Source: a virus. Taken from it: a stretch of DNA of 31,260 nt. The translations under genes and the position numbers were made by a program. The DNA lies in IMG/VR virus record IMGVR_UViG_3300047354_000692, positions 1 to 31,260 of that record; one strand, 5' to 3'. Of the stretch, positions 1,509-21,852 are shown piece by piece (position 1 is the stretch's first letter; the number at the start of each line of letters is the position of its first letter). Below the pieces are notes generated by a model that saw nothing but the letters and a program-made list of their open reading frames with translations, was not told where the DNA came from and made no database searches.

Positions 1509-1838
1509 TTAGAGATCTTTACCAACGTCAGTTGCATTTTTCGCCATTTTGGAAACTTCATCTCCGGGACGTCCTGGATTTCCTGGCAAGTCTTCAACAT
1601 CGTCAACTTCAGAAGTTTTAAGTTCTATTTTGTCTTTGTCAAAGTTTTTAACAATTTTTTGGATTTTGGGATCGCTGTCATATGCAGCTTTGAATACATC
1701 ATATGAAAACTGATTACGTCCTGTATTCTGCATAAACTTGTCAAGTTTCTTTATGCTAATTACAGTTCTATCAGATTGTTTTAAATGATCTAGGATTTGG
1801 AATATAGACGTACTGTCTACATTTTCTTCTATTTTAGC
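1509..1838 (-). CDS. Start-less downstream frame, probably expressed by -1 frameshift from the scaffold-like gene
   Basis: A 109-codon open frame runs from 1838 to the stop at 1509 in the -1 frame relative to the preceding gene. Its first in-frame ATG is at 1733, which would leave a 74-aa protein, but the 35 codons before it also read as ordinary protein (for example IFQILDHLKQSDRTVISIKK) and join smoothly onto a motif I remember from T4-like phage proteins (FKAAYDSDPKIQKIVKNFD, then LKT). No ATG, GTG or TTG lies in those 35 codons. The frame is entered exactly at an A AAA AAG slippery heptamer at the end of the upstream gene. Either a -1 frameshift appends this domain to a fraction of scaffold molecules, or translation starts at 1733 and the conserved N-terminal part is lost. 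The C-terminus is acidic and Gly/Pro-rich. Function unknown, probably virion-related. Confidence 0.72.
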   Translation of the reverse strand, partial: AKIEENVDSTSIFQILDHLKQSDRTVISIKKLDKFMQNTGRNQFSYDVFKAAYDSDPKIQKIVKNFDKDKIELKTSEVDDVEDLPGNPGRPGDEVSKMAKNATDVGKDL

Positions 1839-1844
1839 TTTTTT
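1801..1844 (-). promoter_or_regulatory. Candidate programmed -1 frameshift signal (A AAA AAG plus stem-loop)
   Basis: On the minus strand the zero frame reads CCA AAA AAA AAG CTA AAA TAG. The heptamer A AAA AAG occupies 1844-1838, the same heptamer used by E. coli dnaX, and the zero-frame stop follows three codons later at 1831-1829. About 14 bases further on, AATGTAGAC (1823-1815) can pair with GTCTATATT (1809-1801) around a five-base loop, a 9-bp stem. The spacer is longer than the usual 5-9 bases and I see no strong Shine-Dalgarno-like stimulator upstream, so efficiency may be low. Confidence 0.65.
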
Positions 1845-2593
1845 TTTGGACGCTCTACAGACTCACGCTTTTCTCTGCCGCCTAGGTCTTCGCCACCTGC
1901 TTCTGCATCAGATGCACCAAAGTCGTCATCATCGGTACCAACAGTATCTAATGCATCGTCCATTTCGTCGTCAACTGGTTCCATGTCTGGATCTGCATCC
2001 GGGTCCATATCATCTGCACCCATAGTATCCATAGGCTCAGCTTCACCAGTAAGCTGTCCTACACCCTGTGTTAGTGTACCACGTGTTGTTTCCATTACAC
2101 CATACATTGATTCAAGTGCTGGCTTTACAAGACTAGTAAATGCTTCACTTGCTTCACTACCCATTTCATCACGGATTGCATCTGCTAGCTCTAACATAGA
2201 TTCGGTTTGCATTTCTGCTGTATCTTCCATCCATCCAGTTAGTCTGTCAACCATATCTTTAGCTGCCATTACTAGTTCTGCTTTATCTTCTTCGCCTTCA
2301 TTAACTTGCTGTACTGCTTCGTCAATAGCATCTACAATCGTGTCGTTGCGTTCTTCGATTGCTGTGTTAAGTACGTCAAGGAATAACTTACTCTTCTGAT
2401 ATGTTTTGTCTTGTACAGAATCAAATGCTTCATTTGTTTCCACTTGACTTAATGAGGTTCTAAGCTTGTTTCTAGCATCTTGTAACTGCTCAGTAGTAAA
2501 CTGATCAATATCAATTTTAGAACCAAACTTTTTAGCTAAACTTTCATTTAACTTTTTAGCACTGGCTGGTCTTGTAAATTCTCTAATATTCAT
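1829..2593 (-). CDS. Acidic, coiled-coil-rich prohead scaffold/core-like protein
   Basis: The 254-aa product has a mostly helical, charged N-terminal two thirds (residues 1-165), then a very acidic linker (about 166-235, rich in DD, DPD and MEP) and a basic tail ending RPKKKLK. Such composition is typical of phage head scaffold or core proteins, but I recognise no specific domain. The N-terminus MNIREFTRP fits the M-x-hydrophobic-x-E-hydrophobic leader shared by several genes here, and KKLNE at residues 13-17 matches the (L/I)xE cut site of T4-type prohead proteases. A good ribosome site (AAGGA, 8 bases before the ATG) and a late promoter at 2624-2631 precede it. The gene ends on the slippery run that opens the downstream frame, so a longer minor form is likely. 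Confidence 0.6.
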   Translation of the reverse strand: MNIREFTRPASAKKLNESLAKKFGSKIDIDQFTTEQLQDARNKLRTSLSQVETNEAFDSVQDKTYQKSKLFLDVLNTAIEERNDTIVDAIDEAVQQVNEGEEDKAELVMAAKDMVDRLTGWMEDTAEMQTESMLELADAIRDEMGSEASEAFTSLVKPALESMYGVMETTRGTLTQGVGQLTGEAEPMDTMGADDMDPDADPDMEPVDDEMDDALDTVGTDDDDFGASDAEAGGEDLGGREKRESVERPKKKLK

Positions 2594-2623
2594 TGCAACG
2601 TTCCTTGAACTTTTTTATATATG

Positions 2624-2631
2624 TATTTATA
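2624..2631 (-). promoter_or_regulatory. T4-type late promoter TATAAATA
   Basis: TATAAATA on the minus strand, 31 bases before the ATG of the scaffold-like gene, inside the last codons of the upstream gene. It matches the T4 late promoter -10 box exactly. Confidence 0.7.
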
Positions 2632-3055
2632 CTTTAGACAAAATTAATCTGTCTAAACTGTCTCGTACTTTTTGTGCTTCTACTAGAGAAATTTCTAATC
2701 TTGTTTCTCTAGTCTGTCTTGCTTGGTCACATTTACTTTTTCTTATCATATGCTTATAAAATACTGCATCATTATAGTGTTTTGCTAAATTATTTTCTAT
2801 ATCTATTATCTTATCGAACATATGACTCTTATTTTCAGCAAGATTCTTAGCTATTGCAATAGCTATTGACTTAAATTGTGTTTTATGTAGCTGTTTATTA
2901 CAAGAACTGTCATAAACAAGATAGCCTACTTTACTCTTCCTTACTACATATTGTTTAATACGAACACTATTACCTTTGGCAATTGGTATTGTAGTATCTT
3001 CTAGTCCTTTATCAACAATATCTTCAAGGTCATATATCAGATTGTCAGAAATCAT
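2627..3055 (-). CDS. Conserved T4-like phage protein of unknown function (142 aa)
   Basis: The protein begins MISDNLIYDLEDIVDKGLED and contains AKGNSVRIKQYVVRKSK and GYLVYDSSC, then a helical C-terminal half with KHYNDAVFYKHMIR. It resembles proteins found beside structural genes in marine T4-like phages, judged from memory of such sequences; I cannot assign a function. It has no signal peptide or membrane segment. It overlaps the next gene upstream by 11 bases and contains the scaffold gene's late promoter near its stop, consistent with a late, virion-linked block. Confidence 0.7.
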   Translation of the reverse strand: MISDNLIYDLEDIVDKGLEDTTIPIAKGNSVRIKQYVVRKSKVGYLVYDSSCNKQLHKTQFKSIAIAIAKNLAENKSHMFDKIIDIENNLAKHYNDAVFYKHMIRKSKCDQARQTRETRLEISLVEAQKVRDSLDRLILSKV

Positions 3056-3254
3056 TTTTTGTCACCATTACAGAGCGTTTGTCGAGCATTATTTTACTTA
3101 CCACACTTTTACGTATTAAGTTGTTAATTATGACTTGATCATGTTCTGTGAATGATGACAGCGGCTTTGTTTGATTGCCCAAAGTTTCTAATAATTCTTC
3201 TTCTTCATTGGTCAAGAATACTTCGAAGCTTTTAATGAGTTCGTTTAACTTCAT
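3045..3254 (-). CDS. Small hypothetical protein (69 aa) with MKxNEL leader
   Basis: The product MKLNELIKSFEVFLTNEEEE... is short, soluble and charged. Its first six residues fit the shared leader M-x-(L/I/V/Y)-x-(E/D)-(L/I/F). The remainder (TEHDQVIINNLIRKS) suggests a small helical fold. Both ends overlap neighbouring genes by a few bases (ATGA-type junction with the upstream gene at 3251-3254), so it is translated as part of one polycistronic block. Function unknown. Confidence 0.6.
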   Translation of the reverse strand: MKLNELIKSFEVFLTNEEEELLETLGNQTKPLSSFTEHDQVIINNLIRKSVVSKIMLDKRSVMVTKNDF

Positions 3255-3478
3255 TTTATTGCCGCTAGTTGTGTCTGTAGTTGTTTAAGCTGTTCGCGGG
3301 TAGCACGAATTTGATCTTGTATTACTTTCTTTTGTTCTTGCTTTTGCTTCGCTGCAACTGCTGGATTTTCTTCTGTACCCATTTGCTGTTTTGCTTGATC
3401 CATATTACTAACACCGGGTAGAGCGTCAGCTCTACCTTGCTGATCTGCAGGAGTGCCTACAAGTTCCATTATCTTCAT
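3251..3478 (-). CDS. Small hypothetical protein (75 aa) with C-terminal coiled coil
   Basis: The first half (MKIMELVGTPADQQGRADALPG) is flexible and the second half is a Gln/Lys/Glu-rich heptad region ending QLKQLQTQLAAIK, a likely coiled coil. The N-terminus again fits the shared leader, with IME at residues 3-5 resembling an (L/I)xE site. Start and stop overlap the flanking genes by four bases. It may be a small internal or scaffolding component; there is no direct evidence of role. Confidence 0.6.
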   Translation of the reverse strand: MKIMELVGTPADQQGRADALPGVSNMDQAKQQMGTEENPAVAAKQKQEQKKVIQDQIRATREQLKQLQTQLAAIK

Positions 3479-3789
3479 CGTTTGCTTCCCCTTCTCTTTC
3501 TAGGTCGAAGTGTTCTACGTGAACCAACATTTAACCTTTTAAGCTTTTGACTAGCTGGGCTAGTACGTTTTGTTCTATTAGATTTTATACTAACTGTTGC
3601 ACCTTTGCTACGCCTAGTCTTTTTCATTGTAGTCATTGCTTTTACATTTTTAGGTGCTGTACATGTTCCTGGTTTAGCAACAATACGTCCCTTACGTGAG
3701 CCACTAGTACATCTATACTTGCGTACGACTTTGTTACCTGTCTTACCAAATATAGGTGTTGCACCTTCTATTATCTCACGTACAAACAT
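3475..3789 (-). CDS. Highly basic VRKYRC-type phage protein, paralogue 1 (104 aa)
   Basis: After the leader MFVREIIEGATPIFG the protein is dominated by Lys and Arg. It contains VVRKYRCTSGSRKGRIV, a single later Cys (GTCTAPKNV), then a long basic tail ending RPRKRRGSKR. The next upstream gene shares the VVRKYRC core, the later Cys-x-APNV segment, a TKRxxPAS motif and the basic end, so the two are tandem paralogues. REIIE followed by Gly fits a T4 prohead-protease site (IIE at residues 6-8). Basic head-internal proteins are known in T4, and DNA binding inside the capsid is a reasonable inference. Confidence 0.7.
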   Translation of the reverse strand: MFVREIIEGATPIFGKTGNKVVRKYRCTSGSRKGRIVAKPGTCTAPKNVKAMTTMKKTRRSKGATVSIKSNRTKRTSPASQKLKRLNVGSRRTLRPRKRRGSKR

Positions 3790-3790
3790 A

Positions 3791-4207
3791 TTATCGCCTT
3801 CTACTTGTTGCTTTATTCAGACGCTGTACTCTAATTGATGCAGGATTAATACGTTTTGTCCTTTTTGCTTTCCTAGCAATTCTAGAACCTAATCTAGCTT
3901 TAACCCTTTTTAATGCAATACGCTTTTTTACATTTGGTGCAGCAAAGCATTGTTGTAACTTAGACACAATTCTATTTTTGCGTGGACCAGCTGAACATCT
4001 ATACTTACGTACAACTTTCTTACCAGATCTAGCCCAAGTAGGACCTTCGTCTAAGTCATCTTCCTCATGATGAACTTGAACTATCTTCCAACCTTTTTTA
4101 ACTAAAGCCACAGCTTTTTTCTTGTCAACTTTGTAAGAGAACCCTGTTTTAGGATTTTCTATTTCAACTGCGTCTTTAGGTGGTATGTATAGCTCGCGTA
4201 ATAACAT
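3791..4207 (-). CDS. Highly basic VRKYRC-type phage protein, paralogue 2 (138 aa)
   Basis: This is the longer paralogue of the preceding entry. An N-terminal part (residues 1-55) includes KTGFSYKVDKKKAVALVKKGWKIVQVHHEED, which looks like a small separate strand-helix unit. Then follow the shared KVVRKYRCSAGPRKNRIVSK core and a strongly basic tail ending ATSRRR. The start is set by the ATG at 4207, only five bases after the box GCTAAATA, so the mRNA may be leaderless. No Shine-Dalgarno sequence is visible. Likely nucleic-acid-binding virion protein, by composition only. Confidence 0.7.
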   Translation of the reverse strand: MLLRELYIPPKDAVEIENPKTGFSYKVDKKKAVALVKKGWKIVQVHHEEDDLDEGPTWARSGKKVVRKYRCSAGPRKNRIVSKLQQCFAAPNVKKRIALKRVKARLGSRIARKAKRTKRINPASIRVQRLNKATSRRR

Positions 4208-4212
4208 ATAGT

Positions 4213-4220
4213 TATTTAGC
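4213..4220 (-). promoter_or_regulatory. Late-promoter-like box GCTAAATA directly before an ATG
   Basis: GCTAAATA on the minus strand lies five bases from the ATG at 4207. The block CGCTAAATAACT(A/G)TATG recurs almost exactly before the basic protein gene starting at 25769. If it acts like a T4 late -10 box, transcription would begin at or next to the start codon. Confidence 0.5.
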
Positions 4221-4225
4221 GTAAT

Positions 4226-4459
4226 TTATAGGTTCATTACTAGAACTATGATGGTAGATAGCAGGCCGGCTGTAATTGTGCCTGCAGCGCCAATAATGAC
4301 TTTAGTCATACTTTTTTGGCCTTCAACAACATCTTTATGTATGCTGTCTACTTTTGATTCGATTTTGGTTAGTCTGCCCTCTAAAGCTTCGTAGCGTTGT
4401 TGACATAGATCAACGTGTGCTTCAAGGTTTTCTTTTTCTAATTCTGTGGCACCAGCCAT
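4226..4459 (-). CDS. Small coiled-coil plus single transmembrane protein, holin/spanin-like architecture (77 aa)
   Basis: Residues 1-50 form an amphipathic, heptad-like region (LEAHVDLCQQRYEALEGRLTKIESKV). A single membrane helix follows at the C-terminus (VIIGAAGTITAGLLSTIIVLVMNL). This layout is common among small phage membrane proteins of T4-like marine phages, some annotated as holins, but one membrane segment and no other lysis gene nearby make that only a possibility. The leader upstream contains a hairpin, GCTTAC (4492-4487) pairing with GTAAGC (4481-4476). A GATAAATA box overlaps the stop of the upstream gene about 100 bases before the start. Confidence 0.65.
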   Translation of the reverse strand: MAGATELEKENLEAHVDLCQQRYEALEGRLTKIESKVDSIHKDVVEGQKSMTKVIIGAAGTITAGLLSTIIVLVMNL

Positions 4460-4464
4460 CTTTA

Positions 4465-4554
4465 AACTCCGTAGTGCTTACGCTCAGTAAGCTTGATTAA
4501 GTAAACTCTTAGTTGGGCCTTAATTGTGTCTTTAGATGCCTGGTAGTTTTTGTG
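4465..4554 (-). other. Short protein-like frame without a start codon
   Basis: Thirty codons beginning CAC and ending at a TAA (4464-4462) read as plausible protein (YQASKDTIKAQLRVYLIKLT, ending RKHYGV). The frame is preceded directly by an in-frame TAG and holds no ATG, GTG or TTG. It could be a remnant of a small gene, a gene starting at a non-canonical codon, or chance. It fills most of the gap between two minus-strand genes. Confidence 0.25.
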
Positions 4555-4562
4555 CTACAATA

Positions 4563-4961
4563 TTATTTATCTAATAATTCAAAATTGGTATTGCTTATTT
4601 TAGGTTTTTGTGTGATAAAAACTGAATTTTTAAATTTTACTGTTTCAGCTAACTCAGTAATTATAGGAATTAAATTAAAATCATTGTTTAACATGTCTAG
4701 CGTTAATGAATCTGGTGCTGGAGATGTAAACTCAAACTGCCATATAGTTTGTTGTCCTTTGTAGTCACTTCCTAAACTTTTTTCCTTAGGAACTGCTGTA
4801 ATACATGTTGGACCACTAGTATATTCAATATTTGTTCTCAAACCTATCGTCTGTAGCACTGTGAGAAAGTTTTGCTGTTGTCTGTATGCAAGAGGATCTT
4901 CTCCACGCCTTGCTCCTGTTTCAGTAATGTCTACTAGTGTAGTAAGTCTAAACTTGTCCAT
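4563..4961 (-). CDS. Conserved hypothetical phage protein (132 aa)
   Basis: The product starts MDKFRLTTLVDITETGARRGEDPLAYRQQQNF and has alternating strand-rich segments (TIWQFEFTSP, KFKNSVFITQKPKI). I associate the opening motif (LVDITET, then QQQNF) with unassigned proteins of T4-like marine phages, but cannot give a function. It is soluble and has no signal peptide. The start lies four bases after the late-like box TGTAAATA (4973-4966) and lacks a ribosome binding site, which suggests a leaderless late mRNA. Confidence 0.65.
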   Translation of the reverse strand: MDKFRLTTLVDITETGARRGEDPLAYRQQQNFLTVLQTIGLRTNIEYTSGPTCITAVPKEKSLGSDYKGQQTIWQFEFTSPAPDSLTLDMLNNDFNLIPIITELAETVKFKNSVFITQKPKISNTNFELLDK

Positions 4962-4978
4962 ACAGTATTTACAGACAT

Positions 4979-5007
4979 AAAAAAAGAGCCCACATAAATG
5001 TGAGCTC
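4979..5007 (-). terminator. Intrinsic terminator after the small structural gene
   Basis: On the minus strand GAGCTCACAT (5007-4998) pairs with ATGTGGGCTC (4995-4986) around a two-base loop, with one G-U pair, and is followed by seven T (4985-4979). This ends the transcript of the 5047-5376 gene and insulates it from the gene at 4961. Confidence 0.85.
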
Positions 5008-5046
5008 TCAAAATCCTAAGGTAGATTTTATTTTTAGTTACGTAAA

Positions 5047-5376
5047 TTATGCACTTACGATAAACTGTCCGCCTTCAGTTACTGTTGCGGATGATAGGTC
5101 GATTGAATCAACTGTACCTAGTGCTTGTAAGCCAACTTGTAGACCAGCTGCGTTAGTTTGTGAAGCATCATATACGATGTTAATCAAACCAGCTGTGCCT
5201 TCACTGTTGATTGCAATTGGCTGTAGTTGCTGTGCAATAGCTTCAATAGTGGAACCAATTCCACCTTTAGCTGCTACTGAAGCACCACATGCTACAACTG
5301 CGAAACCTAAGTTTGCTGTTGAATAGATCGTTGCGTGTGCATGACCTAATCCGTTTACTCTTGTTACTGCTGCCAT
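5047..5376 (-). CDS. Small, probably abundant virion structural protein (109 aa)
   Basis: The protein (MAAVTRVNGLGHAHATIYST...) is rich in Ala, Gly, Thr, Ser and Val, with few charged residues and many short strands, as in head-decoration or other outer virion proteins. It sits alone between a late promoter (GATAAATA, 5443-5436) and a strong intrinsic terminator (4979-5007). Such a private transcription unit is usual for a product made in large amounts. A ribosome site (AGGAGAATATAAA before ATG) is clear. The 5' leader can fold a short AAGAAGA/TCTTCTT hairpin. Which virion part it forms cannot be told from sequence. Confidence 0.65.
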   Translation of the reverse strand: MAAVTRVNGLGHAHATIYSTANLGFAVVACGASVAAKGGIGSTIEAIAQQLQPIAINSEGTAGLINIVYDASQTNAAGLQVGLQALGTVDSIDLSSATVTEGGQFIVSA

Positions 5377-5435
5377 TTTATATTCTCCTATATTCTCTAA
5401 TGACTAAAGAAGACCTCTTCTTCTTTGTATACTTT

Positions 5436-5443
5436 TATTTATC
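5436..5443 (-). promoter_or_regulatory. T4-type late promoter GATAAATA
   Basis: GATAAATA on the minus strand, 60 bases before the ATG of the small structural protein gene. It is followed by a leader with a short hairpin (AAGAAGA with TCTTCTT). Confidence 0.6.
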
Positions 5444-5469
5444 ATCTATTAGGGAAAATATGGGGTGTT

Positions 5470-6354
5470 TTAGCTCTTTTTGGCTCGTTTATGTAATGCA
5501 CGTAGGTTATTTACGTATGCAGGTCCTGCTTGCACTATATCATCAAGCATTTCTATTGCAGGCATATATGCTTGCACCATACCACTACTAGCCGCTTGTC
5601 CATTGCTCGCTTGCTGTAGGAAACGTTTAGTTAGTGCTAGATTCTTAGATCCAACTAGATATCTATACAATGCTAGATTTTGTTGTGAGCCAGCTAGGTC
5701 TGGTTTTGATACTGTAGGCTCTGGATCAGTGACACTAGCTTTCTCCATGTTTTTAATTGCAGCCCACTTTTCAAAGTCATCAATTAAGTCTGAGCTTCTA
5801 AGCTTTGCCCTTGTCGCAAATATTAACCGTGTAGCAACTAAACGCTTATCTGATCTAGTTTGTTTATCCCAGTTCAGTATACTTCTACGAACTGCTTTGT
5901 AATCGGAGTTAGTAATTCTCAAAGCAGATTCGAGTTTAATAAACAAAGAACTAGGATTAACTTCACTACCGTTAGCTAATGCTCGAATATATCTATTAAT
6001 ATCAAGTACAGGAATACGTGAGTTTCTTTTCATTTCTTTAGCTGACTTAGGATCTTTTAACTTATTTTGTGCAGAATCACCTCCTACTATAAAATATATA
6101 AAGTTATAAAGATCTGTACCCATGATTCTATAATATCTATAAGTTTCAAAGCCCACAGTCTTTTTAGCGTATTTTTGCACTATGTTTTTAAAATCGGGAT
6201 ACTTACGCATAGTTTCTAATATTAATAGTGTTAGGTACAATCTCTCACAACAATCTGAGAATGTTAGCTTTTTTGAACTTCCATTATCTTTTGTCATACG
6301 TGCTTCGTGCAAGTCCTTAATGAATGAGAATGCTTCTTCTTTAGAAGTATCCAT
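5470..6354 (-). CDS. Conserved hypothetical phage protein (about 294 aa)
   Basis: Mostly helical, basic protein without recognisable domain. Landmarks are FIKDLHEARMTKDNGS near the N-terminus, TYRYYRIMGTDLYNFIYFI in the first third and a QQNLALYRYLVGSKNLALTK segment near the C-terminus. The start is uncertain. The frame is open back to an ATG at 6408, but the ATG at 6354 (MDTSKEEAFSF) has a strong ribosome site, AAGGAGG seven bases upstream, and is preferred. It lies in the virion gene block and ends near the late promoter of the next unit. Function unknown. Confidence 0.65.
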   Translation of the reverse strand: MDTSKEEAFSFIKDLHEARMTKDNGSSKKLTFSDCCERLYLTLLILETMRKYPDFKNIVQKYAKKTVGFETYRYYRIMGTDLYNFIYFIVGGDSAQNKLKDPKSAKEMKRNSRIPVLDINRYIRALANGSEVNPSSLFIKLESALRITNSDYKAVRRSILNWDKQTRSDKRLVATRLIFATRAKLRSSDLIDDFEKWAAIKNMEKASVTDPEPTVSKPDLAGSQQNLALYRYLVGSKNLALTKRFLQQASNGQAASSGMVQAYMPAIEMLDDIVQAGPAYVNNLRALHKRAKKS

Positions 6355-6414
6355 AGTATGGCCTCCTTCTATTGCTGCCCATTCAGTTGCTGTGTACCGA
6401 TCAGTCATTAAATA

Positions 6415-6879
6415 TTAGCCTCTTGCAAAGTCTTTTGCGTCGCGATCAATTTCGTCATCACTTGGTGCTTTATCTTCTGGTTCGTCATCTGGCTCATCTT
6501 GTGGCTCAGGGTCTTTAACACCAACATCAGTTTTCATACTAGCATTTTCTTCTGCTTTTTTAAGCAGTTTCATAATAGTTGGCTTGTCACAACCACAAGC
6601 AGATTCTAAATCTTTAAAAAATTTAGCAAGCTTTTGCTTTGGATCGCCGCTGCCTTCTGATGGATCTTTGATTCCAAAGGTGTTACCAACAGTAGTTAGT
6701 GCTGACCCAAGTGATCCCATTTTATTCATCATGCCTAGTTCTTCGTCTGACATTTTAGCTAGGCTTCCCGGCTCTCCTGTGCCTTGTCCTAGTTGTTGAA
6801 GTGTACGACCAAACCTTGCCATCTTTTGGGCAAAAGGTGATGCATCGTAGTAACCTTCTGTAATTTCATGTACTTTCAT
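6415..6879 (-). CDS. Hypothetical virion-block protein with capsid-targeting-like leader (154 aa)
   Basis: The start at 6879 (MKVHEITEGYYDASPFAQ) is chosen over an upstream in-frame ATG at 6921 because AAGGAG lies six bases before it. The leader contains ITE followed by Gly at residues 6-8, a match to the T4-type prohead protease site. The middle is Gly/Leu-rich (FGRTLQQLGQGTGEPGSLAK). The sequence CGCD near residue 105 is the only cysteine pair. The C-terminal 45 residues are strongly acidic with repeated EPxDEPxD units. Acidic tails and cleavable leaders are features of head-core proteins, so an internal head role is possible. Confidence 0.6.
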   Translation of the reverse strand: MKVHEITEGYYDASPFAQKMARFGRTLQQLGQGTGEPGSLAKMSDEELGMMNKMGSLGSALTTVGNTFGIKDPSEGSGDPKQKLAKFFKDLESACGCDKPTIMKLLKKAEENASMKTDVGVKDPEPQDEPDDEPEDKAPSDDEIDRDAKDFARG

Positions 6880-6889
6880 TTCTAACTCC

Positions 6890-7975
6890 TTAGTTTGGTT
6901 GCCATCTTGTACGAGGTACAAGTTTTACTTTTGATTTTTGTGCGACATAACCTTCGCCGCCTTTTTCGCCTGCTGTAGTTGCCTTAACGTCTGCATCTGC
7001 GGAATCTAATTGATCTATGATATTGTCCTTTACAGTCATTATTGTTTTGATAAGTCCAAATATACTTGCTAATGCTTTTGGTGAAGCATCATGCATACCT
7101 TTAATTTTTGCTTGCTTGTTTGCACTTACCTTACTAGTACTTAGCCATTCAAAGAATCCTGATTCTATATTTTTTAGCTGTTGTGTGCGTGTCATATGAT
7201 TGACATATGTATAAATGATATTCTTCATATCACTTAGACCTTTTTGTGGTGCAAGAAACTGATCAATTACTTTTGCACTTGCATTTGCTTTTTTACGTAT
7301 AGCATCTGTTTGTTTTGTATCAACCTTGGGTTGATGTGTTACATATGTTTGTCCTAGCACAACAACATCTCTATTATTAAAAATACTTACATCTTTAATA
7401 GGTGTGCTATCTTTACTCCCAAAAGTTTCATATGTAGTATGTGCTACGACACCAACTTGTGAGGCCGCTATGCGTTGCCCAAGCTCGCTTTTCTTAGTCA
7501 CGGTGTATGTAACTTTGTTAGGAGTAAAGACAACCGCATCGTCTGCGTCAGTGTAAGGCTTGCGTGGAGTATAAAGTAAGTCTCCATAAGCATAGCCTTT
7601 AAAGCTAGGAGGTGTTGCTGACTTCATTAGTTCAAATACGCTAGCCATATCGCCAGCAAAGTCTTTACGCCAGTCTTCGCCTTTACCTGTGTTTAAAATA
7701 AACTTAGACAAGTCAGCTGATGTTGTTGACTTTTGTCTCCCCCAGCCATTTTTACCTACACATACAAATGTGCCGTCTGGTTCACGTCCCCAATAAAATG
7801 TAGGGTTGCCGTCCCATTTAATAGCTACATCACCTGAGTCACTGCCCATGCCGTCTAGTATATCTGCTGCTTTCATTGCGCCAGCTGATCCGTTAACAGT
7901 CACAAGATCTTCTACGTGATTATATTCGCGACCCTTAAATTCTTCGGTCAGTATTTTAAACTCTTGATATCTCAT
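6890..7975 (-). CDS. Putative covalent nucleotidyltransferase/ligase-like protein (DUF6267-type phage family)
   Basis: The 361-aa protein has VAIKWDGNPTFYWG at residues 50-63, which carries the K-x-D-G motif I (Lys53) of ATP-dependent DNA/RNA ligases and capping enzymes. FKGYAYGDLLYTP (about 125-137) could be motif III, and KVKLVPR near the end is a possible but weak motif V. The phage family it resembles (I recall DUF6267) has no proven activity, so ligase function is inferred. The N-terminus MRYQEFKILTEEF closely resembles the T4 internal-protein leader MKTYQEF and includes LTE at residues 9-11, a prohead-protease-type site. The start overlaps the stop of the nucleotidyltransferase gene as ATGA, so the two proteins are made together. 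Confidence 0.6.
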   Translation of the reverse strand: MRYQEFKILTEEFKGREYNHVEDLVTVNGSAGAMKAADILDGMGSDSGDVAIKWDGNPTFYWGREPDGTFVCVGKNGWGRQKSTTSADLSKFILNTGKGEDWRKDFAGDMASVFELMKSATPPSFKGYAYGDLLYTPRKPYTDADDAVVFTPNKVTYTVTKKSELGQRIAASQVGVVAHTTYETFGSKDSTPIKDVSIFNNRDVVVLGQTYVTHQPKVDTKQTDAIRKKANASAKVIDQFLAPQKGLSDMKNIIYTYVNHMTRTQQLKNIESGFFEWLSTSKVSANKQAKIKGMHDASPKALASIFGLIKTIMTVKDNIIDQLDSADADVKATTAGEKGGEGYVAQKSKVKLVPRTRWQPN

Positions 7976-8742
7976 TTTGGTAGCAGTTCTTTGATCCGTC
8001 TAAGCTGTTTGTCTTCTAATGTTTCAGTTGGTGCAGGTATCTTCTTTTTCATCCAAGCACTTTCTGGATCAGCTTCGTACTTGTCTACAATTGCTTGTGC
8101 TTCTGGATTTGCTTTTACAATACTTTCAACACTTCCTAAGTCCGCAGCTTTTGCTTTTGGATTTAAAAGAATCTTAGCTACTTGATTAAGATCGCTTGAT
8201 ATAAGTTCGTTAGTTTCCCTGTCAACTAGTCCTTTATACGCACTCCATTTCATGCCATTAGGATGATCGTCTGTTGTTTTTACTTTAGCAAGGTCAGCTA
8301 TCATAATTTGCTTGTGTACACCTTTGTACAACGATCCTTTAGGTAAGTCGTGTACGTGAAACTTTTGGGCTGTAGCACCGTTGTCTACTACCATAATATC
8401 AACTTGTTGAGGTGTGTCACCTATTGTGGTTTTAACATGTACAATTTGTCCTGACTTGCGTGTTTCAAAGCCAGCTTGCTGAAATAACTTTTCTAATTCT
8501 ATTTTTGCATTTTTTGTATCTGCAACTTTGAAGTGCTTTATTATAGTACCAGCATCAACAATCATATCTAAATCGCCACTTAGTTTACCTGGTGTTGGTG
8601 TTGCACCAGAACCAATTGGTAGTGCTTTGGCACCTGTAACTTTCATGACTTTATTAATTTGTTTCATCATGTCCGGTATCAGCTTTTGATCGAACTCAGC
8701 TGTACCTTGGAAGATGTTGCCACCTTCGTTAAGAATTGTCAT
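7972..8742 (-). CDS. Pol-beta-type nucleotidyltransferase-like protein
   Basis: Residues 43-63 read GSGATPTPGKLSGDLDMIV, the GS...DxD signature of pol-beta superfamily nucleotidyltransferases (Asp57 and Asp59). A third carboxylate is expected in QQVDIMVV (Asp115). The rest is helical with a KHFKV linker and a C-terminal basic region. Members add nucleotides to RNA ends, proteins or small molecules; the substrate here is unknown. It is coupled to the KxDG protein downstream. Its N-terminus, MTILNEGGN, contains LNE followed by Gly (residues 4-6), another possible prohead-protease site. The start has a clear ribosome site (AAGGAAAGCAGA before ATG). Confidence 0.7.
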   Translation of the reverse strand: MTILNEGGNIFQGTAEFDQKLIPDMMKQINKVMKVTGAKALPIGSGATPTPGKLSGDLDMIVDAGTIIKHFKVADTKNAKIELEKLFQQAGFETRKSGQIVHVKTTIGDTPQQVDIMVVDNGATAQKFHVHDLPKGSLYKGVHKQIMIADLAKVKTTDDHPNGMKWSAYKGLVDRETNELISSDLNQVAKILLNPKAKAADLGSVESIVKANPEAQAIVDKYEADPESAWMKKKIPAPTETLEDKQLRRIKELLPK

Positions 8743-9017: not shown

Positions 9018-9043
9018 TATTTATAAGGTTTGGAGTATAAATA
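9018..9043. promoter_or_regulatory. Divergent pair of T4-type late promoters
   Basis: TATAAATA occurs on the minus strand at 9025-9018, serving the gene ending its leader at 9004, and on the plus strand at 9036-9043, serving the lipase. Both are exact late-box matches, set back to back with 10 bases between them. Confidence 0.75.
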
Positions 9044-9092: not shown

Positions 9093-9878
9093 ATGCCGGG
9101 TATTTTAGATCTCGATACATATAATCGATCATTACTTTTCGCGAAGTTATCAAAGTATGCTTATTATAACATCAATAGTGCAAAAAAGCAAGCGAAAAAA
9201 TTAGGTTTTACAACAACAGAATTTTATGACCGGGACGGTGCTCAAGCATATAGATTCCAAAATAAAACAGATATGGTTATAGCTTGTAGGGGAACACAGC
9301 CTACACAGTATAGTGATATACAAGCAGACTTAAAGGCAATGCCTGTCGTTGCTGAAACTGTGTCCAGAGTGCATAGAGGTTTTAAGGACGAAGTAGACGA
9401 CTTATGGCCTATGATACTAGAAGATATACAACGTAAAGCAAATGCAAAGAAAACTGTTTGGTTCTGTGGACATTCGTTAGGTGCAGCTATGGCAACTATT
9501 ATGGCTAGCAGATGTTATCATCATGAAGGTATTCCAAATCCGTATGAGCTTTACACTTACGGTAGTCCAAGAGTAGGATGGACCAAGTATTGTACATCTT
9601 TAGGCGTCAGACATATTAGATGGGTAAACAATAACGATATAGTCACAAGAGTTCCATTAAACATAATGGGATATAGACACCATGGCATGGAACACTATCT
9701 AAACACTTGGGGCAATGTTCGTACACTCACAGGATGGCAAAGAACTAAAGACAGGTTTAGAGGTATTTGGAGAGGTATCAAAGTAATGAAAGTTGATAGT
9801 TTCTCAGATCACTCTATTGATGCTTATGTAATGCACATTAAAAAAGCCGCTGAAGGTATGGAAACACCGCAAGTTTAG
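9093..9878 (+). CDS. Class 3 lipase-like alpha/beta hydrolase
   Basis: The 261-aa protein has the lipase (class 3) layout: an oxyanion-side [15 protein letters not shown] (about 66-80), the nucleophile elbow [14 protein letters not shown] with Ser128, [15 protein letters not shown], a likely catalytic Asp in NNDIVTRVP, and His in [11 protein letters not shown]. There is no signal peptide, so it acts in the cytoplasm or is released at lysis. The ribosome site TAAGGAGGAAAG is strong and the gene follows a late promoter and hairpin. It may hydrolyse host lipids late in infection. The stop overlaps that of prs on the opposite strand by four bases. Confidence 0.85.
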
Positions 9879-10807
9879 TCAAACAGTGAACTTACGCTTT
9901 CTTCGTTAGTAACTCTACGAATAGCTTCACCGAATAGTGTTCCAACACTTACTTCACGCAATTTCTTAAGTTTACTAAAGTCCCTAGTGTTGATACTGTC
10001 AGTAACTACTAGTTCATCAAGTACACTCTTTTCTACACGTTTAACTGCTTCTCCACTTAGCACTCCGTGTGTAATATAAGCTCTAACACTTAATGCTCCT
10101 GCATCCATAATAGCTTGTGCCGCACCACATAGTGTTCCTCCGCTGTCTACAATGTCATCTACTAGAATAGCATGCTTGTCTTTCACATCACCAATTAGTG
10201 CCATTACTTCACTAACACCTGCTTGTGGTCTACGCTTATCAACGACAGCAATATCTCCATGAAACATATCAGCAAACTTTCTAGCACGAACTGCACCGCC
10301 TGCATCAGGCGAAACAAAGACAGTGCCTTGATTAACATTAACATGTGATCTAATATCATCTGCAAATACGATACGGCTTGTTAAATCGTCCACTGGAATA
10401 TCAAAGAACCCCTGTATTTGTCCTGCATGTAAATCCATTGTAAGTATTCTATCTGCACCAGCTGTTGTAATTAAATTAGCAACCAACTTAGCAGTAATAG
10501 GTGTACGACTTGCACTCTTACGATCTTGACGAGCATAACCAAAGTAAGGAATAACTGCTGTAATACGACTAGCACTACTACGCTTGGCAGCATCAATCAT
10601 TATAAGCAATTCCATTAAACTATCGTTTACAGGAGTTGATGTTGAGTTACAAATAAAAACATCTTCTCCCCTTATATTTTCTAAAAACTCTACACTGGTT
10701 TCTCCGTCCGCAAAGTTACTTACTTTAGCAGGAACTAATGTGGCAAAACAGTGTTGTGCGATTCTATCAGCTAACTCCGGATTCGCATTGCCAGTTATTA
10801 TCTTCAT
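9875..10807 (-). CDS. prs: Ribose-phosphate pyrophosphokinase (PRPP synthetase)
   Basis: The protein makes PRPP from ribose-5-phosphate and ATP, the entry point to purine, pyrimidine and NAD synthesis. Visible signatures are [41 protein letters not shown] (ATP-binding loop region), [32 protein letters not shown] and the PRPP-binding loop [14 protein letters not shown]. Length (about 310 aa) is normal for bacterial class I enzymes. The frame can be extended to a TTG at 10813; the ATG at 10807 (MKIITGNAN), just after the TGA of the ugd-like gene, is preferred. It shares a transcript with that gene from the sigma-70 promoter at 11636-11664, so it should be an early gene. Confidence 0.93.
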
Positions 10808-10809
10808 CT

Positions 10810-11610
10810 TCAAGTGTCACCCTTCCTTACGTTATTATTATATTGAATAGCTTCTCGTATCAACGACAAGTCTATATCAAAGTCCTGTGCTGTTTTTAGA
10901 ATTGCTTGGGTGTCTTTGGGAAAACAGTGACCTCCGAAACCCCGTTCTGATGTTACTCTGCTGTGGCTATCTCCTATTCGGTTGTCGTCTGTTATTAAGG
11001 GTATGACTGCTTCGTGATCAACTTCAGCGGCTTTGCATAAATCATAAACTTGATTAAAGAAAGCAACTTTTGTAGCTAAAAAGCTGTTACGAAAATATTT
11101 AGCTAATATCAAATCTCTTGGATGTGCGTGTTTAATCTTTACTACTTTGTTGGGTCTGATCATTACTCTTTCTAATATTCTTTCCCAAAAGTAATAGTGT
11201 CCACCTCCCATATAAAAAGTTTCAGTAGCAAGCATATCTTCTACTGCATGTTCTGCTCTTATAAACTCAGGGGAGAATGTAATTGTATGTGTTGGGAACA
11301 AACTTTCTATTTGTTCCCAACCTTCAAGACTGATTGTGCTTTTGATTAGTACCGGAGTTTTTGGATCTGTATCTGTGAGTACATCAAAGACATTTGACAT
11401 ATCACATTCACCAGTTTCTGCTTGCGGAGTACTTACGCAGATTATTACTCCTTCAGCGTTTGTGTCACTGATTTTTAATCCGCATGTAAGATCTTTTCCT
11501 AGTATTCTATAATACTCAGGATCAACTATTTTGGTAGTTACACCACACTCTTTTAGATAGGCTTCGACAGCTCTACCAACATGGCCATACCCTGCAATAG
11601 TTATTCTCAT
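10810..11610 (-). CDS. Short UDP-glucose/GDP-mannose dehydrogenase-like protein
   Basis: The N-terminal Rossmann motif ([18 protein letters not shown]), VIICVSTPQ, an [15 protein letters not shown] segment and the catalytic cysteine loop [11 protein letters not shown] are characteristic of the UDP-glucose/GDP-mannose dehydrogenase family. At 266 aa it is far shorter than the usual 390-450; the C-terminal UDP-sugar-binding domain is absent. Such short versions occur in marine phages. It may oxidise a nucleotide sugar as a dimer with altered binding, or act on another substrate. It overlaps no other gene at its 5' end and is coupled to prs. Confidence 0.85.
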
Positions 11611-13890: not shown

Positions 13891-13943
13891 TGTGGCCGTA
13901 CACTGACGAAGAATCAGATTGGCTAGATGATAAAAAGAGTTGA
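13890..13943 (+). CDS. Possible 17-aa acidic leader peptide before AOX
   Basis: ATG 13890 to TGA 13941-13943 encodes MWPYTDEESDWLDDKKS. It overlaps the DUF1127 stop (TAATG) and the first 17 bases of the oxidase gene. Because the oxidase start lacks its own clear ribosome site, translation of this peptide may deliver ribosomes to it. Confidence 0.45.
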   Translation: MWPYTDEESDWLDDKKS

Positions 13944-14520
13944 CATCGCCGATAGTATAGCGTTTAGGCTTACAATGATGTTTAGATGGTTTGCAGATAC
14001 TTTTTTTGCAAAGCGTTATGGACACAGAGCAGTAGTACTTGAAACTGTTGCCGGAGTACCAGGTATGGTAGCAGGCATGTGGAATCACTTACGTAGCCTA
14101 AGAAAGATGCAACCTGATGAGCGAGGCTGGATTAAGACTTTACTAGACGAAGCTGAAAACGAACGAATGCATTTAATGATCTTCATTGAAATTGCAAAAC
14201 CAAATATCTTTGAAAGATTATTAATTGCATTTGCTCAGCTTGTTTTTTGGCACTTCTATCTAGTTTTATACATTTTCTTTCCAGGCACTGCACACAGGAT
14301 GATAGGATACTTTGAAGATCAAGCTGTTATTTCATACACACAATATCTAGATGAAATAAAAAGTAGCAAGGTTGAAAATATTCCTGCTCCGCAAATTGCA
14401 ATAGATTATTACGGATTGAAAAAAACTGCAAAGTTAAGTGATGTAATTAAAAAAGTAAGAGCTGACGAGCAAGGGCATGCAGATGTTAATCACGGAATGG
14501 CTGACCAAATAAACAAATAA
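13927..14520 (+). CDS. Alternative oxidase (cyanide-insensitive ubiquinol oxidase)
   Basis: The 197-aa protein has every di-iron ligand of the AOX family: Glu39 in VLETVAGVPG, Glu79 and His82 in NERMHLM, Glu130 in YFEDQAV, Glu181 and His184 in RADEQGHAD. It oxidises ubiquinol and reduces oxygen to water without pumping protons, as a monotopic inner-membrane protein. The NERMH form fits AOX rather than cyanophage plastoquinol oxidase. It lacks the long plant N-terminus, as bacterial forms do. It is the last gene of the coupled small-gene operon. Its likely use is to keep carbon oxidation and ALA or TCA flux going, or limit oxidative stress, when the host respiratory chain is disturbed. Confidence 0.93.
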   Translation: MIKRVDIADSIAFRLTMMFRWFADTFFAKRYGHRAVVLETVAGVPGMVAGMWNHLRSLRKMQPDERGWIKTLLDEAENERMHLMIFIEIAKPNIFERLLIAFAQLVFWHFYLVLYIFFPGTAHRMIGYFEDQAVISYTQYLDEIKSSKVENIPAPQIAIDYYGLKKTAKLSDVIKKVRADEQGHADVNHGMADQINK

Positions 14521-16665: not shown

Positions 16666-17859
16666 TCACTTTATAACCTTAACCAATGCGTCTACTAAAT
16701 CGCTCATCATAGCGTCAGTGTGCAAAGGAGTTGGTGCGATCCTTAACCTTTCTGTTCCTTCTGGAACAGTTGGGTAGTTAATGGGTTGTATATAAATCCC
16801 ATATTCATTAAGCAACTCGTCACTAATTTCTTTGCAACGCTTTGCATCTCTTATCATTACAGGAACTATGTGTGTGCTTGCAACATCTAGCACTTCTATG
16901 TCAACTTCTGCTAACATAGACTTTAACTTAGATGCACGTTCTTGATGTTGAACACGCAACTCATTATGATCCTTTAAATATTTAATTGCGGCTAAGGCAC
17001 CAGCACAAATCACAGGACTCATGCTGGTAGTGAATATAAATCCACTAGCTACTGATCTGATTGCGTCTATGACAATCCCTTCACCAGCTATGTAACCGCC
17101 TTGTACTCCAAACGCTTTGCCTAAAGTTCCGTTGACTATATCAACTACACCTTCTTGTCCGACTTCTTCTAGCTTACCGGCCCCTGATTCCCCGTACAAG
17201 CCTACAGCATGTACTTCGTCTAGATATGTTATGGCCCTATACTTTTCGGCTAGCTCGCAAACACCTTTAATTGGACTTACGTCACCATCCATGCTATACA
17301 CAGATTCAAATACAATACATGGTATCATATCGTTAGCTACGCAATCTTGCAATTTTTCTTCTAAGTCGCTCAGATCATTGTGCTTCCATCTTGCCTTAGG
17401 AGCACCACTATGTCTTATACCTTCTATCAGGCTGGCATGGTTCATGTCGTCACTTAAAAACATAATGTTGGGAATGATTTTGCTTAGAGCAACCAGTGTC
17501 CACTCATTGGCAACATATGCACTTGTATACAATAAAGCACTTGAAGTACCATGCAATTTTGCAAGCTCATGCTCTAGTGCTACATGGTAGTGCGAAGTAC
17601 CGCCAATGTTTCGCGTACCACCTGATCCACTTCCTGTTTGATCTAAGGCAGTATGCATTGCATCAATGACGACTTTATTCTGACCCATACCGAGGTAATC
17701 ATTACTACACCAGTTTACAATATTTTTTATTGCATAAGGCCCGTACCAAATTGATTTAGGAAAGTCACCGCGTTCACGAAGTATATCGTTAAACACTCTG
17801 TACCTACCTTGCTGTTTTAGGTCCCGTAGAACCTGTTCAAATGGATCCTTGTCTATCAT
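16666..17859 (-). CDS. hemA: 5-aminolevulinate synthase (ALAS, Shemin pathway)
   Basis: ALAS condenses glycine with succinyl-CoA to 5-aminolevulinate, the first step of heme synthesis in alphaproteobacteria. The 397-aa protein is full length and shows NWCSNDYLGMGQN, GSGSGGTRNIGGTSHYHVAL, a DEVHAVGLYG segment near residue 214, and the PLP lysine in NGTLGKAFGVQGG (Lys248), followed by FTTSMSP. Residues around SVYSMDGDVSPI and the ALAS-type TRNIGGTSH favour ALAS over the related KBL and AONS enzymes. The ATG lies five bases after the box CTTAAATA, so the mRNA may be leaderless. In a phage this could raise heme supply or drain glycine and succinyl-CoA; which, is unknown. Confidence 0.93.
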   Translation of the reverse strand: MIDKDPFEQVLRDLKQQGRYRVFNDILRERGDFPKSIWYGPYAIKNIVNWCSNDYLGMGQNKVVIDAMHTALDQTGSGSGGTRNIGGTSHYHVALEHELAKLHGTSSALLYTSAYVANEWTLVALSKIIPNIMFLSDDMNHASLIEGIRHSGAPKARWKHNDLSDLEEKLQDCVANDMIPCIVFESVYSMDGDVSPIKGVCELAEKYRAITYLDEVHAVGLYGESGAGKLEEVGQEGVVDIVNGTLGKAFGVQGGYIAGEGIVIDAIRSVASGFIFTTSMSPVICAGALAAIKYLKDHNELRVQHQERASKLKSMLAEVDIEVLDVASTHIVPVMIRDAKRCKEISDELLNEYGIYIQPINYPTVPEGTERLRIAPTPLHTDAMMSDLVDALVKVIK

Positions 17860-18622: not shown

Positions 18623-19453
18623 ATGACGCAACTAATATCGCCGAAGAAGTTTACAAACACCGTTGACCTTTTAAGGTCATTTTTTTTGGACAAAGGATTT
18701 TTAGAAGTCCATACGCAGAATAGGCTTAGTATACTAGCCGCATGCGAAGATCCATTTAATGTAGCAACATATAATTACGCAGGCCAAGTTTGGCCATTGC
18801 CGCAAACAGGCCAGATGTGGCTAGAACATGAATTATTAAGTAGCCCCGATAGTAAGGGGTTTTTTTGTGTCTCCACTTCCTATAGACAAGAACCAAACGC
18901 TATTCCGGGTAGACACGATATAATATTTCCAATGTTTGAATTTGAAATGCCAGGTAGTGTTGATGATCTTAAAGCAATGGAGTATGAACTATGTGAGTAC
19001 TTGGGCTTTGATGCACTAACAGAAAAAACATATAGAGAATGGCAACAGCATTGGGGTATAAGTGCAGACACTGAAATGGATGCAAGTCACGAACTAGCAA
19101 TGGAGATGAACTTTGGTAGTTGTTTGATTACAAACTTTCCAGAGCTAACATCACCTTTCTGGAACATGGCTAGAAACGATGATGGCAATACAGCAAAGAA
19201 AATGGATGTTATACTAGGCGGTATGGAAACTATTGGATCAGCAGAACGCTCATGCGATGTTGATATGATGCGTGATACATTCCATAGTATTGTAGATGGA
19301 GAGTATAGCGAATTACTATACAAACTATTTGGCAAAGAACGTGTAGAAGCAGAGCTTGAAAAGTTTTTAGAGTTTGACTTTTTTCAAAGAGTAGGCGGAG
19401 GTATTGGTATTACACGTATGATACCTGCACTAGAAAAGATCAACAAGATATAA
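18623..19453 (+). CDS. AsnRS-like class IIb aminoacyl-tRNA synthetase catalytic core without anticodon-binding domain
   Basis: The 276-aa protein is a bare class II core. Motif 2 is STSYRQEP with Arg88 and a later MFEFEM (103-109), and motif 3 is VGGGIGITRM with Arg265. Between them NDDGNTAKKMDVILGGMETI then GSAERS (about 186-210) corresponds to the NDDGKTVAAMDVL...GGSQRE stretch typical of asparaginyl-tRNA synthetases, so AsnRS is the closest relative I can see (AspRS and LysRS are the wider class). Normal AsnRS is about 430-470 aa and starts with an OB-fold that reads the GUU anticodon; that domain is missing, and the usual QRE reads AER. Ribosome site AAAAGGAAAAGAA. The gene lies six bases before a GUU-anticodon tRNA, so joint function is likely. 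Alternatives are amino-acid activation or protein modification, as for EpmA. Confidence 0.8.
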   Translation: MTQLISPKKFTNTVDLLRSFFLDKGFLEVHTQNRLSILAACEDPFNVATYNYAGQVWPLPQTGQMWLEHELLSSPDSKGFFCVSTSYRQEPNAIPGRHDIIFPMFEFEMPGSVDDLKAMEYELCEYLGFDALTEKTYREWQQHWGISADTEMDASHELAMEMNFGSCLITNFPELTSPFWNMARNDDGNTAKKMDVILGGMETIGSAERSCDVDMMRDTFHSIVDGEYSELLYKLFGKERVEAELEKFLEFDFFQRVGGGIGITRMIPALEKINKI

Positions 19454-20333: not shown

Positions 20334-20671
20334 CACTCATAACTTTCGCCAGTTTCACGAAAGAAGTTTTCACTCCAAAACGCTTTGTCATCTATCCAAA
20401 TATCGTAGTTCTCTTTTTCACCTACGCTTAGTTCATGGAACTTTGCACCCCATTTTACTAATTGGTTATTTGTTAGATTGTAATAGTCTACTCCACTAAC
20501 ACAACCTCTAGCTGTCATATATTTAATTGTGTGTCCTGCGTCAAATAGTGCATTTACTTTTGCAATACGATCTGGCATTGGTATATGATTAGCATAGTCT
20601 TTTTTGCCACCGCTGTCAGGTATAATTACTTCTTTACAGATGGTGCCATCAATATCAATTACGTACTTCAA
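20333..20671 (-). CDS. HAD-superfamily phosphatase-like protein
   Basis: Motif I is YVIDIDGTICKE (nucleophile Asp6 and acid Asp8), motif II is YMTARGC, and motif IV is DIWIDDKAFW. At 112 aa it is a minimal, capless HAD fold, close to the phosphatases found with polysaccharide genes and in many phages. Substrate unknown; sugar phosphates are an obvious candidate because it lies directly after PEPCK, with an ATGA overlap. Confidence 0.85.
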   Translation of the reverse strand: MKYVIDIDGTICKEVIIPDSGGKKDYANHIPMPDRIAKVNALFDAGHTIKYMTARGCVSGVDYYNLTNNQLVKWGAKFHELSVGEKENYDIWIDDKAFWSENFFRETGESYE

Positions 20672-21852
20672 TTCAATAATCCTTCCAAAGTTTGTAGTAC
20701 TTGCTCACTGTTATCAGCTCTTCCTGTAACAATAGCATCTTTAACACATTGTCTAGTAAACTCTAACGGAAACCTTGCTCCGTCTTTGTCCATACCTGTG
20801 TTAACTAGATAGACATTAGCTTTATGTGTGTCTATTTTATCCATTAATAAATCGCTATATTCAGAAACTGCCCTAGGCATAAAGGGCGAACCATAGCAAG
20901 GACTAAACAAAGGTTTGATTTCGTTTGTTCCTGCTTCTGTTCCTGGCATTTGACTAGTGTATCCTGTTTCAAAAAACCTACGCACTGTGTTGCCGCTTAT
21001 TTTACTAATAGGTGGAAACATGCCTTTGGCATCCATTGTTAAAAAGAAAATGTTAGTAGGGTGATCAAAATCTGTTGTGTCATATGCATTTTCAACAAGG
21101 TTTAAAGGATAACTTAGCCTAGCATTAGCGGCGCCTGGGTTTTCTTCAACCAAACAATTGTTTGACCTTGCTAGCTCTACTGCATTAAAAATAGTTGGAT
21201 GTGTTTCAGGTGTTAGCCCTTCGCTCTTAGCATAACACCCTGTTTCTATCATATTAACGCCTTCGTAGTTCCATGCTATTTCGTCATCACCAATTAGTTT
21301 GTAATCAGGATCGCTAGACAATGTAGTTTTACCAGTGCCACTAAGACCAAACATAAGATTAGTACTGTCCTTGTAAGTAAATGCACTACAATGCATAGGA
21401 AGTACTTTATGTTCTGGTAATTCAAAACTTACAATACCAAACACGCCTTTCTTAATTTCTCCTAAGAACGTAGTGCCTGCAATTAGCATTACATGTTCGT
21501 CTAGATGTACGTGTATTTTAGGCTTTGACATTTCAATGTCTGTGTTATGTAGTATTGTCCAGTCAGCTGTATATTGTAATGGGTTATCAACCACAGGAAA
21601 CATATTGCGTACAAATTGTGCATGCCTGTCGTCATTTGTTTCTACTCTAAAACAAAGGCCGCAAGTATAAAACACAAGATTATGATTGTATTCTAATTCA
21701 TACATATCGTTATGGAAGTCTTTAAAGTCTTGCTCATTACCAATCTTATTATACTTAGGCCTAGTAAGATCTAATGCTTCAGTACGATGTCCAAAAAAGT
21801 ATTTGTTCTCCGGACTTCTACCTGTCGGGTGTGTCGTTATATTAATATTCAT
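20668..21852 (-). CDS. pckA: ATP-dependent phosphoenolpyruvate carboxykinase, shortened
   Basis: PEPCK converts oxaloacetate and ATP to PEP and CO2, the first committed step of gluconeogenesis. Catalytic elements are complete: TGRSPENKYF (Arg12, oxaloacetate binding), GEIKKGVF (Lys134/Lys135), MHCSA (His154), P-loop GLSGTGKTTLS (169-179), LIGDDE (Asp189/Asp190), NARLSYPL and a late ARFPLEFTR arginine. At 394 aa it is well short of the usual 520-540; about 50-60 residues are missing at the N-terminus and about 80 at the C-terminus, with small internal trims. The gene overlaps GAPDH by 11 bases and the HAD gene by four. A streamlined but probably active phage version. Confidence 0.92.
   Translation of the reverse strand: MNINITTHPTGRSPENKYFFGHRTEALDLTRPKYNKIGNEQDFKDFHNDMYELEYNHNLVFYTCGLCFRVETNDDRHAQFVRNMFPVVDNPLQYTADWTILHNTDIEMSKPKIHVHLDEHVMLIAGTTFLGEIKKGVFGIVSFELPEHKVLPMHCSAFTYKDSTNLMFGLSGTGKTTLSSDPDYKLIGDDEIAWNYEGVNMIETGCYAKSEGLTPETHPTIFNAVELARSNNCLVEENPGAANARLSYPLNLVENAYDTTDFDHPTNIFFLTMDAKGMFPPISKISGNTVRRFFETGYTSQMPGTEAGTNEIKPLFSPCYGSPFMPRAVSEYSDLLMDKIDTHKANVYLVNTGMDKDGARFPLEFTRQCVKDAIVTGRADNSEQVLQTLEGLLN

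Follow-up and report, generated by a model that had tools for sequence, protein, structure and literature searches.

Why should genes for unrelated proteins, gathered in one block of a viral genome, begin with nearly the same residues? The question is raised by the 31,260-nt virus record IMGVR_UViG_3300047354_000692 (hereafter the window; the whole genome record is this 31-kb fragment only), in which a block at 1829–8742 comprises 13 genes, all on the minus strand. We predict that the proteins of this block are very probably targeted to the capsid of a large marine T4-like phage by N-terminal leaders of the T4 type. As noticed in a preliminary description of this DNA, seven of the 52 window genes, all on the minus strand, start with M-x-[LIVY]-x-E-[LIF], namely MNIREF (2593), MKLNEL (3254), MKIMEL (3478), MFVREI (3789), MLLREL (4207), MKVHEI (6879) and MRYQEF (7975). 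The same pattern is found at 0.26% of internal positions (binomial P ~1e-10), and all seven genes lie inside the 13-gene block (Fisher 1.3e-5). Since the motif was picked post hoc from these data, weight is placed on the stronger, external tests, namely relatives and the open reading frames (ORFs) of T4.

The five cleavage sites cited previously (IIE^G, ITE^G, LTE^E, LNE^G and LNE^S, where ^ marks the predicted cut) are all present. The combination of leader and site is convincing for five of the seven genes, MKLNEL and MKIMEL being without a conserved site. Two details are revised here: MTILNE^GG, with which the nucleotidyltransferase begins, belongs to a short leader type and not to the M-x-h-x-E-h form, and the conserved site of the long basic protein, overlooked before, is DLDE^G at residue 54. 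The predicted features of the block are:

7943–7975, minus strand: leader MRYQEFKILTE^E of the ligase-like protein (relatives' leaders; AlphaFold2 (AF2) predicted local distance difference test (pLDDT) <50 in the leader)
6890–7942, minus strand: putative ligase-like body (DUF6267; PF19782, E 2.4e-27; motifs invariant in 23 relatives)
8725–8742, minus strand: short leader MTILNE^GG of the nucleotidyltransferase (E6, G7 and G8 invariant; pLDDT <50 at residues 1–7)
7972–8724, minus strand: body of the pol-beta-like nucleotidyltransferase (SGDLD, with D57 and D59, and D115 invariant)
6856–6879, minus strand: leader MKVHEITE^G of an acidic 154-residue protein (gene 6415–6879; relatives' consensus)
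4046–4207, minus strand: long leader MLLREL...DLDE^G of basic protein A, with an inserted mini-domain (gene 3791–4207, isoelectric point (pI) 11.2)
3766–3789, minus strand: leader MFVREIIE^G of basic protein B (gene 3475–3789, pI 12.0)
2543–2593, minus strand: leader MNIREFTRPASAKKLNE^S of an acidic 254-residue protein (gene 1829–2593; LNE^S constant in relatives' N-termini)
3045–3254, minus strand: 69-residue protein, start MKLNEL (kept in relatives, without a conserved LxE site; doubtful member)
3251–3478, minus strand: 75-residue protein, start MKIMEL (start conserved, site in some relatives only; doubtful member)

AF2 models of the ligase-like protein and the nucleotidyltransferase, whose genes overlap by 4 bases, have disordered leaders and ordered bodies. 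The MKVHEI start of the 154-residue protein requires an internal ATG at 6879, where the ribosome site (AAGGAG) is better than that of the alternative TTG further upstream, at 6921. Basic protein B is a paralogue of basic protein A, in which the site preceding the body GPTWARSGKKVVRKYRC is kept in relatives, behind leaders of ~15–54 residues; as a word, CTAAATAACT, which precedes two of the basic genes, does not exceed chance. The body of the 254-residue protein matches phrog_14154, a virion structural protein (E 3e-12).

Conservation and apparent exchange of the leaders

An IMG/VR scan with the DUF6267 protein recovered 80 loci. Leaders of 5 to >50 residues persist on unrelated protein families in ~80 related contigs, with an (L/I)xE^(A/G/S/E) site directly ahead of each body in the leader-bearing families (six genes). 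For the ligase-like protein, 37 distinct leaders could be read (11 to ~48 residues; one with an alternative TTG start); every one begins with M[RK][YFLW]x[ED][FI] and closes with [LIV][TNLY]E a few positions ahead of the invariant body GREY. Within the nucleotidyltransferase family, E6, G7 and G8 are invariant in 20 sequences of 27–77% identity, and the N-terminus M(T)IL[NK]E is near-universal in 58 relatives. At the 47 distinct leader-body junctions of the basic family, P3 is L (26), I (14), V (4), F (2) or T (1) and P1' is G (42) or A (5); for P3, composition would predict L and I together at 13% (P 1.6e-28, the sequences not being independent). Most relatives of the 154-residue protein begin with MK[IVM][NH]E[VI](x)(T/I/S)E^[AGSV], and the 254-residue family retains LNE^S. 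A leader is also present on DUF6267 of the Methylophilales phage Melnitz (MLTLINFSKYITE^D) and C48C1 (MMLDFKNFITE^Q); the basic homologue of Salicola phage SCTP-2 begins at the body. In tblastn searches against named phages, the nucleotidyltransferase, the 254-residue protein and the protein starting at 25769 gave no match, and no description of the marine leaders was found in the openly licensed literature searched.

A Cys-rich insert, WVCGxCYAEPC, is found in the ligase-like leader of L068, with variants in L056–L064, and also in the basic-protein leaders of L005, L035, L048 and L052. A second insert type, GGGKAADKVRGK...LVGES, resides in the ligase-like leader of L014 and L073, and its first half recurs in a 188-residue protein of L069. 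Because such inserts are common to the leaders of different proteins, the leaders look like modules that have been exchanged as cassettes. The segment WVCGxCYAxPC was also observed in the L189 (564 residues), L195 (1133 residues, near the start) and L196 (170 residues) proteins, and may represent a small, mobile, metal-knuckle-like element.

Similarity to T4 capsid-targeting sequences

In T4, the prohead protease gp21 cuts after L/I-x-E, and a 10-residue capsid-targeting sequence (CTS) suffices for packaging (PMC9026906). A position matrix trained solely on the marine leaders, without any T4 sequence, was used to score 279 T4 ORFs, among which ranks 1–3 were taken by the internal proteins (IPs) IPI (MKTFKEF...ITE^A), IPII and IPIII (MKTYQEFIAE^A); the chance of three given ORFs filling the top three of 279 is ~3 in 10 million. 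Another gp21 substrate, gp24, ranks 6. By the same matrix, with its own family excluded from training, the leader of the 154-residue window protein has p = 0.0002. Ranks 11 and 12 in T4 fell to gp2 (MAIFQIINE^S; L198), which protects DNA ends, and gp61.1 (MKTFKEFIKE^D; L197), a hint that T4 may have leaders not yet recognised as such.

In a 170-kb relative (G002), the DUF6267 block lies at ~16 kb, and ~150 kb away from it are head genes of the T4 type: a portal at 164 kb, then a core protein, an S77 protease (gp21), a scaffold and gp23 at 167–170 kb. Residues H85 and S140 of T4 gp21 are invariant across the aligned proteases. In 76 related loci, gp23 contains TLENTRxxL[SAMN]E^[TSA]A, with an invariant LxE site, and gp21 in related loci itself starts MxxLxE^. 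Both sites agree with the published gp21 rule and with the LIE site published near the start of T4 gp21 (PMC9026906). A leader census of all G002 gave few high scorers beyond the ligase-like protein, its other leaders belonging to a short LFE^A class to which the matrix gives low scores.

Cyanophage DUF6267 corresponds to T4-GC71, and the adjoining gene to T4-GC190, a cytidylyltransferase with the translated N-termini MKKFSAFLNE^AERS in S-SM1, MKKFSTFISE^AVK in S-ShM2 and MRFRQFIIE^A in S-WAM1. A similar enzyme in relatives of the window starts MKIRSLFE^A or MKFKDIKE^A. T4-GC190 was detected in purified S-SM1 virions (PMC3037559). Virions thus include an enzyme that the syntenic locus encodes with a leader. 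The likeness to T4 internal proteins proposed in the preliminary description is therefore upheld on several grounds: the leaders, which vary in length, are conserved and borne by unrelated proteins, the convincing ones end in a gp21-type site, the lineage encodes gp21 and a gp23 with the same LxE site, the marine-trained matrix places the T4 IPs first, and the cyanophage enzyme occurs in virions.

The two enzymes

The ligase-like body is a clear member of PF19782 (96.7 bits against a cut-off of 27, positions 5–366 of 376), a family for which Pfam gives no function. Motif I (K53-WDG), D132, motif IV (EGYV, 341–344) and motif V (K349-x-K351) are invariant in the 23 relatives; we take K53-WDG, EGYV and KxK in DUF6267 to be the ligase motifs of these numbers. 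The AF2 model has a mean pLDDT of 85. The motifs, which are those of the ATP-dependent ligase superfamily, and the fold matches weakly support the earlier assignment, and we refer to the protein as a putative ligase-like nucleotidyltransferase.

The second enzyme, modelled at a pLDDT of 87, matches DNA polymerase lambda (Foldseek E 1.6e-6) and DNA polymerase beta (Z 10.8 over 166 residues), and its palm contains the DxD motif and third Asp (D57, D59, D115) noted above. Here the fold strongly supports the nucleotidyltransferase that had been proposed, predicted to be of the pol-beta type (Pol X-like). A PDB sequence search with profiles of both enzymes returned no credible homologue. A pol-beta-like enzyme and a ligase, if delivered together, could fill gaps in the entering genome and seal it.

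Predicted role of the block and alternative explanations

We suggest that the block encodes cargo of the phage head. A short disordered capsid-targeting leader on each cargo protein would bind the prohead core during assembly, and a T4-type prohead protease (gp21, family S77) would cut after (L/I)xE, freeing the mature protein in the head, from where it would be ejected together with the DNA. The cargo, comprising the pol-beta-type and ligase-like nucleotidyltransferases encoded by overlapping genes together with basic DNA-binding and acidic proteins, may act on the entering genome through gap filling, nick sealing or end protection, ahead of phage gene expression. More tentatively, and with somewhat less than even confidence, large marine T4-like phages may package and inject a DNA end-repair kit via exchangeable leader cassettes. 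Such a kit, in the same tentative proposal, could consist of a pol-beta-like gap filler, a ligase-like sealer and basic DNA-binding proteins, providing repair or protection from entry onwards. The sequences themselves show leaders and sites that are conserved and modular, a relative that carries the head genes, and catalytic motifs that are intact; from there, we infer packaging, cleavage, injection and the repair role.

Several points weigh against such a scheme, among them that the repair role is itself deduced. Head genes, including the protease, are absent from the 31-kb window, and block and head module are seen linked in a single relative, whose ligase-like protein has 66% identity. The largest relative (G001, the L053 contig, 236 kb) is without T4 portal, S77 protease and gp23, which suggests that the genome is considerably longer than 240 kb. 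Apart from G002, none of the block-bearing contigs searched yielded a portal, gp23 or S77; as these contigs are fragments, the absence is not informative. A tail-sheath search gave no match in any of nine contigs. The 69- and 75-residue families keep the start and have no consistent site. Nearly all best fold matches of the ligase-like protein are nucleic-acid ligases, at weak scores (Z <=5.7, Foldseek E 0.18). The S-SM1 evidence, as given in the available portion of that study, covers the presence of T4-GC190 in virions, not its cleavage (PMC3037559). Finally, cyanophage DUF6267 begins at the body, without a leader (S-WAM1, P-HM2, Syn1), and the enzyme can therefore serve outside the virion.

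An alternative that we regard as unlikely is that the leaders do target the prohead core, but that the proteins are scaffold or core components, degraded or gone before DNA packaging, such that nothing functional is injected. Indeed, the acidic 254- and 154-residue members are core-protein-like in composition, and T4 core fragments are mostly removed (PMC9026906). Nevertheless, the sites are located solely at the start, directly ahead of a folded, catalytically intact body, the basic proteins retain a single terminal site, as do the IPs, and T4-GC190 is kept in mature S-SM1 virions (PMC3037559). It is less probable still that the shared start is a docking peptide for an intracellular complex on a common partner, unrelated to the capsid: leader-bearing proteins could cooperate on DNA, and cyanophage DUF6267 functions without a leader, yet docking has no need of a conserved (L/I)xE^(A/G/S) site at the body boundary, nor of a match to the T4 IPs above every other T4 ORF. 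Chance or composition, by which short AT-rich gene starts often yield MK[IL]xE[IL], can draw on the post hoc motif and the two members without a site but is scarcely credible given the binomial value, the confinement to one block and the conservation in ~80 contigs at body identities down to 27–30%. On conservation and statistics it is rejected for six genes, and it is a possible origin of the starts of the 69- and 75-residue genes.

If the block proteins are indeed targeted to the capsid, DNA repair at entry would be part of how these abundant marine phages infect. The leader pattern would also provide a sequence rule to predict injected hypothetical phage proteins, as well as new leaders with which foreign proteins could be loaded into phage heads.

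Late-promoter word and other genes of the window

Three further features were noted:

9018–9025, minus strand: TATAAATA upstream of the block (word search)
2624–2631, minus strand: TATAAATA upstream of the 254-residue gene (word search)
25518–25769, minus strand: small basic protein beyond the block, start MRVQDL, pI 10.0 (relatives retain a leader-like start; site uncertain)

The word TATAAATA is the T4 late-promoter word. Across the window and its relatives, 39 of 49 sites are positioned <=100 nt upstream of a gene start, compared with 16% for control words. Its frequency in the window is not in excess (reached by 16 of 100 shuffles), placement alone being informative, and the exact word precedes the operon in only 5 of 29 distinct regions. 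The placement fits T4-type late transcription. In the window itself, all six occurrences are within ~80 nt upstream of a gene start and in the correct orientation.

The MRVQDL start at 25769, counted earlier as an eighth member, is indeed present and its relatives start MKVDNI, MKVYEI, MRINEI or MKLIDI; it fits the motif only with D allowed.

Elsewhere in the window, genes for PEPCK, GAPDH and class-I fructose-bisphosphate aldolase follow in succession (20668–23623), a gluconeogenesis-like set. An alternative oxidase is encoded at 13927–14520 (PF01786, E 2.9e-74), and ribose-phosphate pyrophosphokinase followed by a UDP-glucose dehydrogenase-like protein at 9875–11610. A class I/II aminotransferase-family protein (16666–17859) resembles 5-aminolevulinate synthase by sequence, and near its gene are a class II D/K/N tRNA-synthetase-like protein (18623–19453) and a tRNA-Gly. 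Three similar-looking proteins with HxD-type motifs and no Pfam match (26340–28837), the middle one with a C-terminal DUF1674, are possibly 2-oxoglutarate-Fe oxygenases.

Comparison with known systems

The T4 leader is known on three small proteins, whereas here it appears to be a general, swappable label on apparent DNA-repair enzymes. IPI, IPII and IPIII with their CTS (Mullaney and Black; PMC9026906) are similar in leader position and length range, in the YQEF/FKEF core, in the LxE/IxE^A cut site and in their small basic cargo, and a gp21-type protease is encoded in a relative of the window. They differ in that T4 has nearly one leader on its three small proteins, while the marine leaders exhibit many variants, with inserts of up to ~40 residues and cargo with nucleotidyltransferase or ligase motifs. 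T4 Alt, a packaged ADP-ribosyltransferase (MELITE^L), is an enzyme with a very short (L/I)xE propeptide, like the MTILNE^G of the nucleotidyltransferase; in contrast to Alt, which acts on the host RNA polymerase, the window cargo resembles DNA-modifying or repair enzymes.

Cyanophage T4-GC190 of S-SM1 shares the DUF6267 (T4-GC71) neighbourhood and has the leader MKKFSAFLNE^A, and it was found experimentally in virions, but it is of another enzyme class, has no homologue in the window and adjoins a leaderless DUF6267. The ejection proteins of the giant phages SPN3US and phiKZ likewise comprise many cargo proteins with cleaved propeptides, whereas their cut motifs are different (A-X-E in SPN3US, PMC10052503) and their cargo includes RNA polymerase and unrelated proteins. 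With respect to PF19782 (DUF6267), of which the window protein is a clear member, the present analysis adds the putative ligase motifs and the leader.

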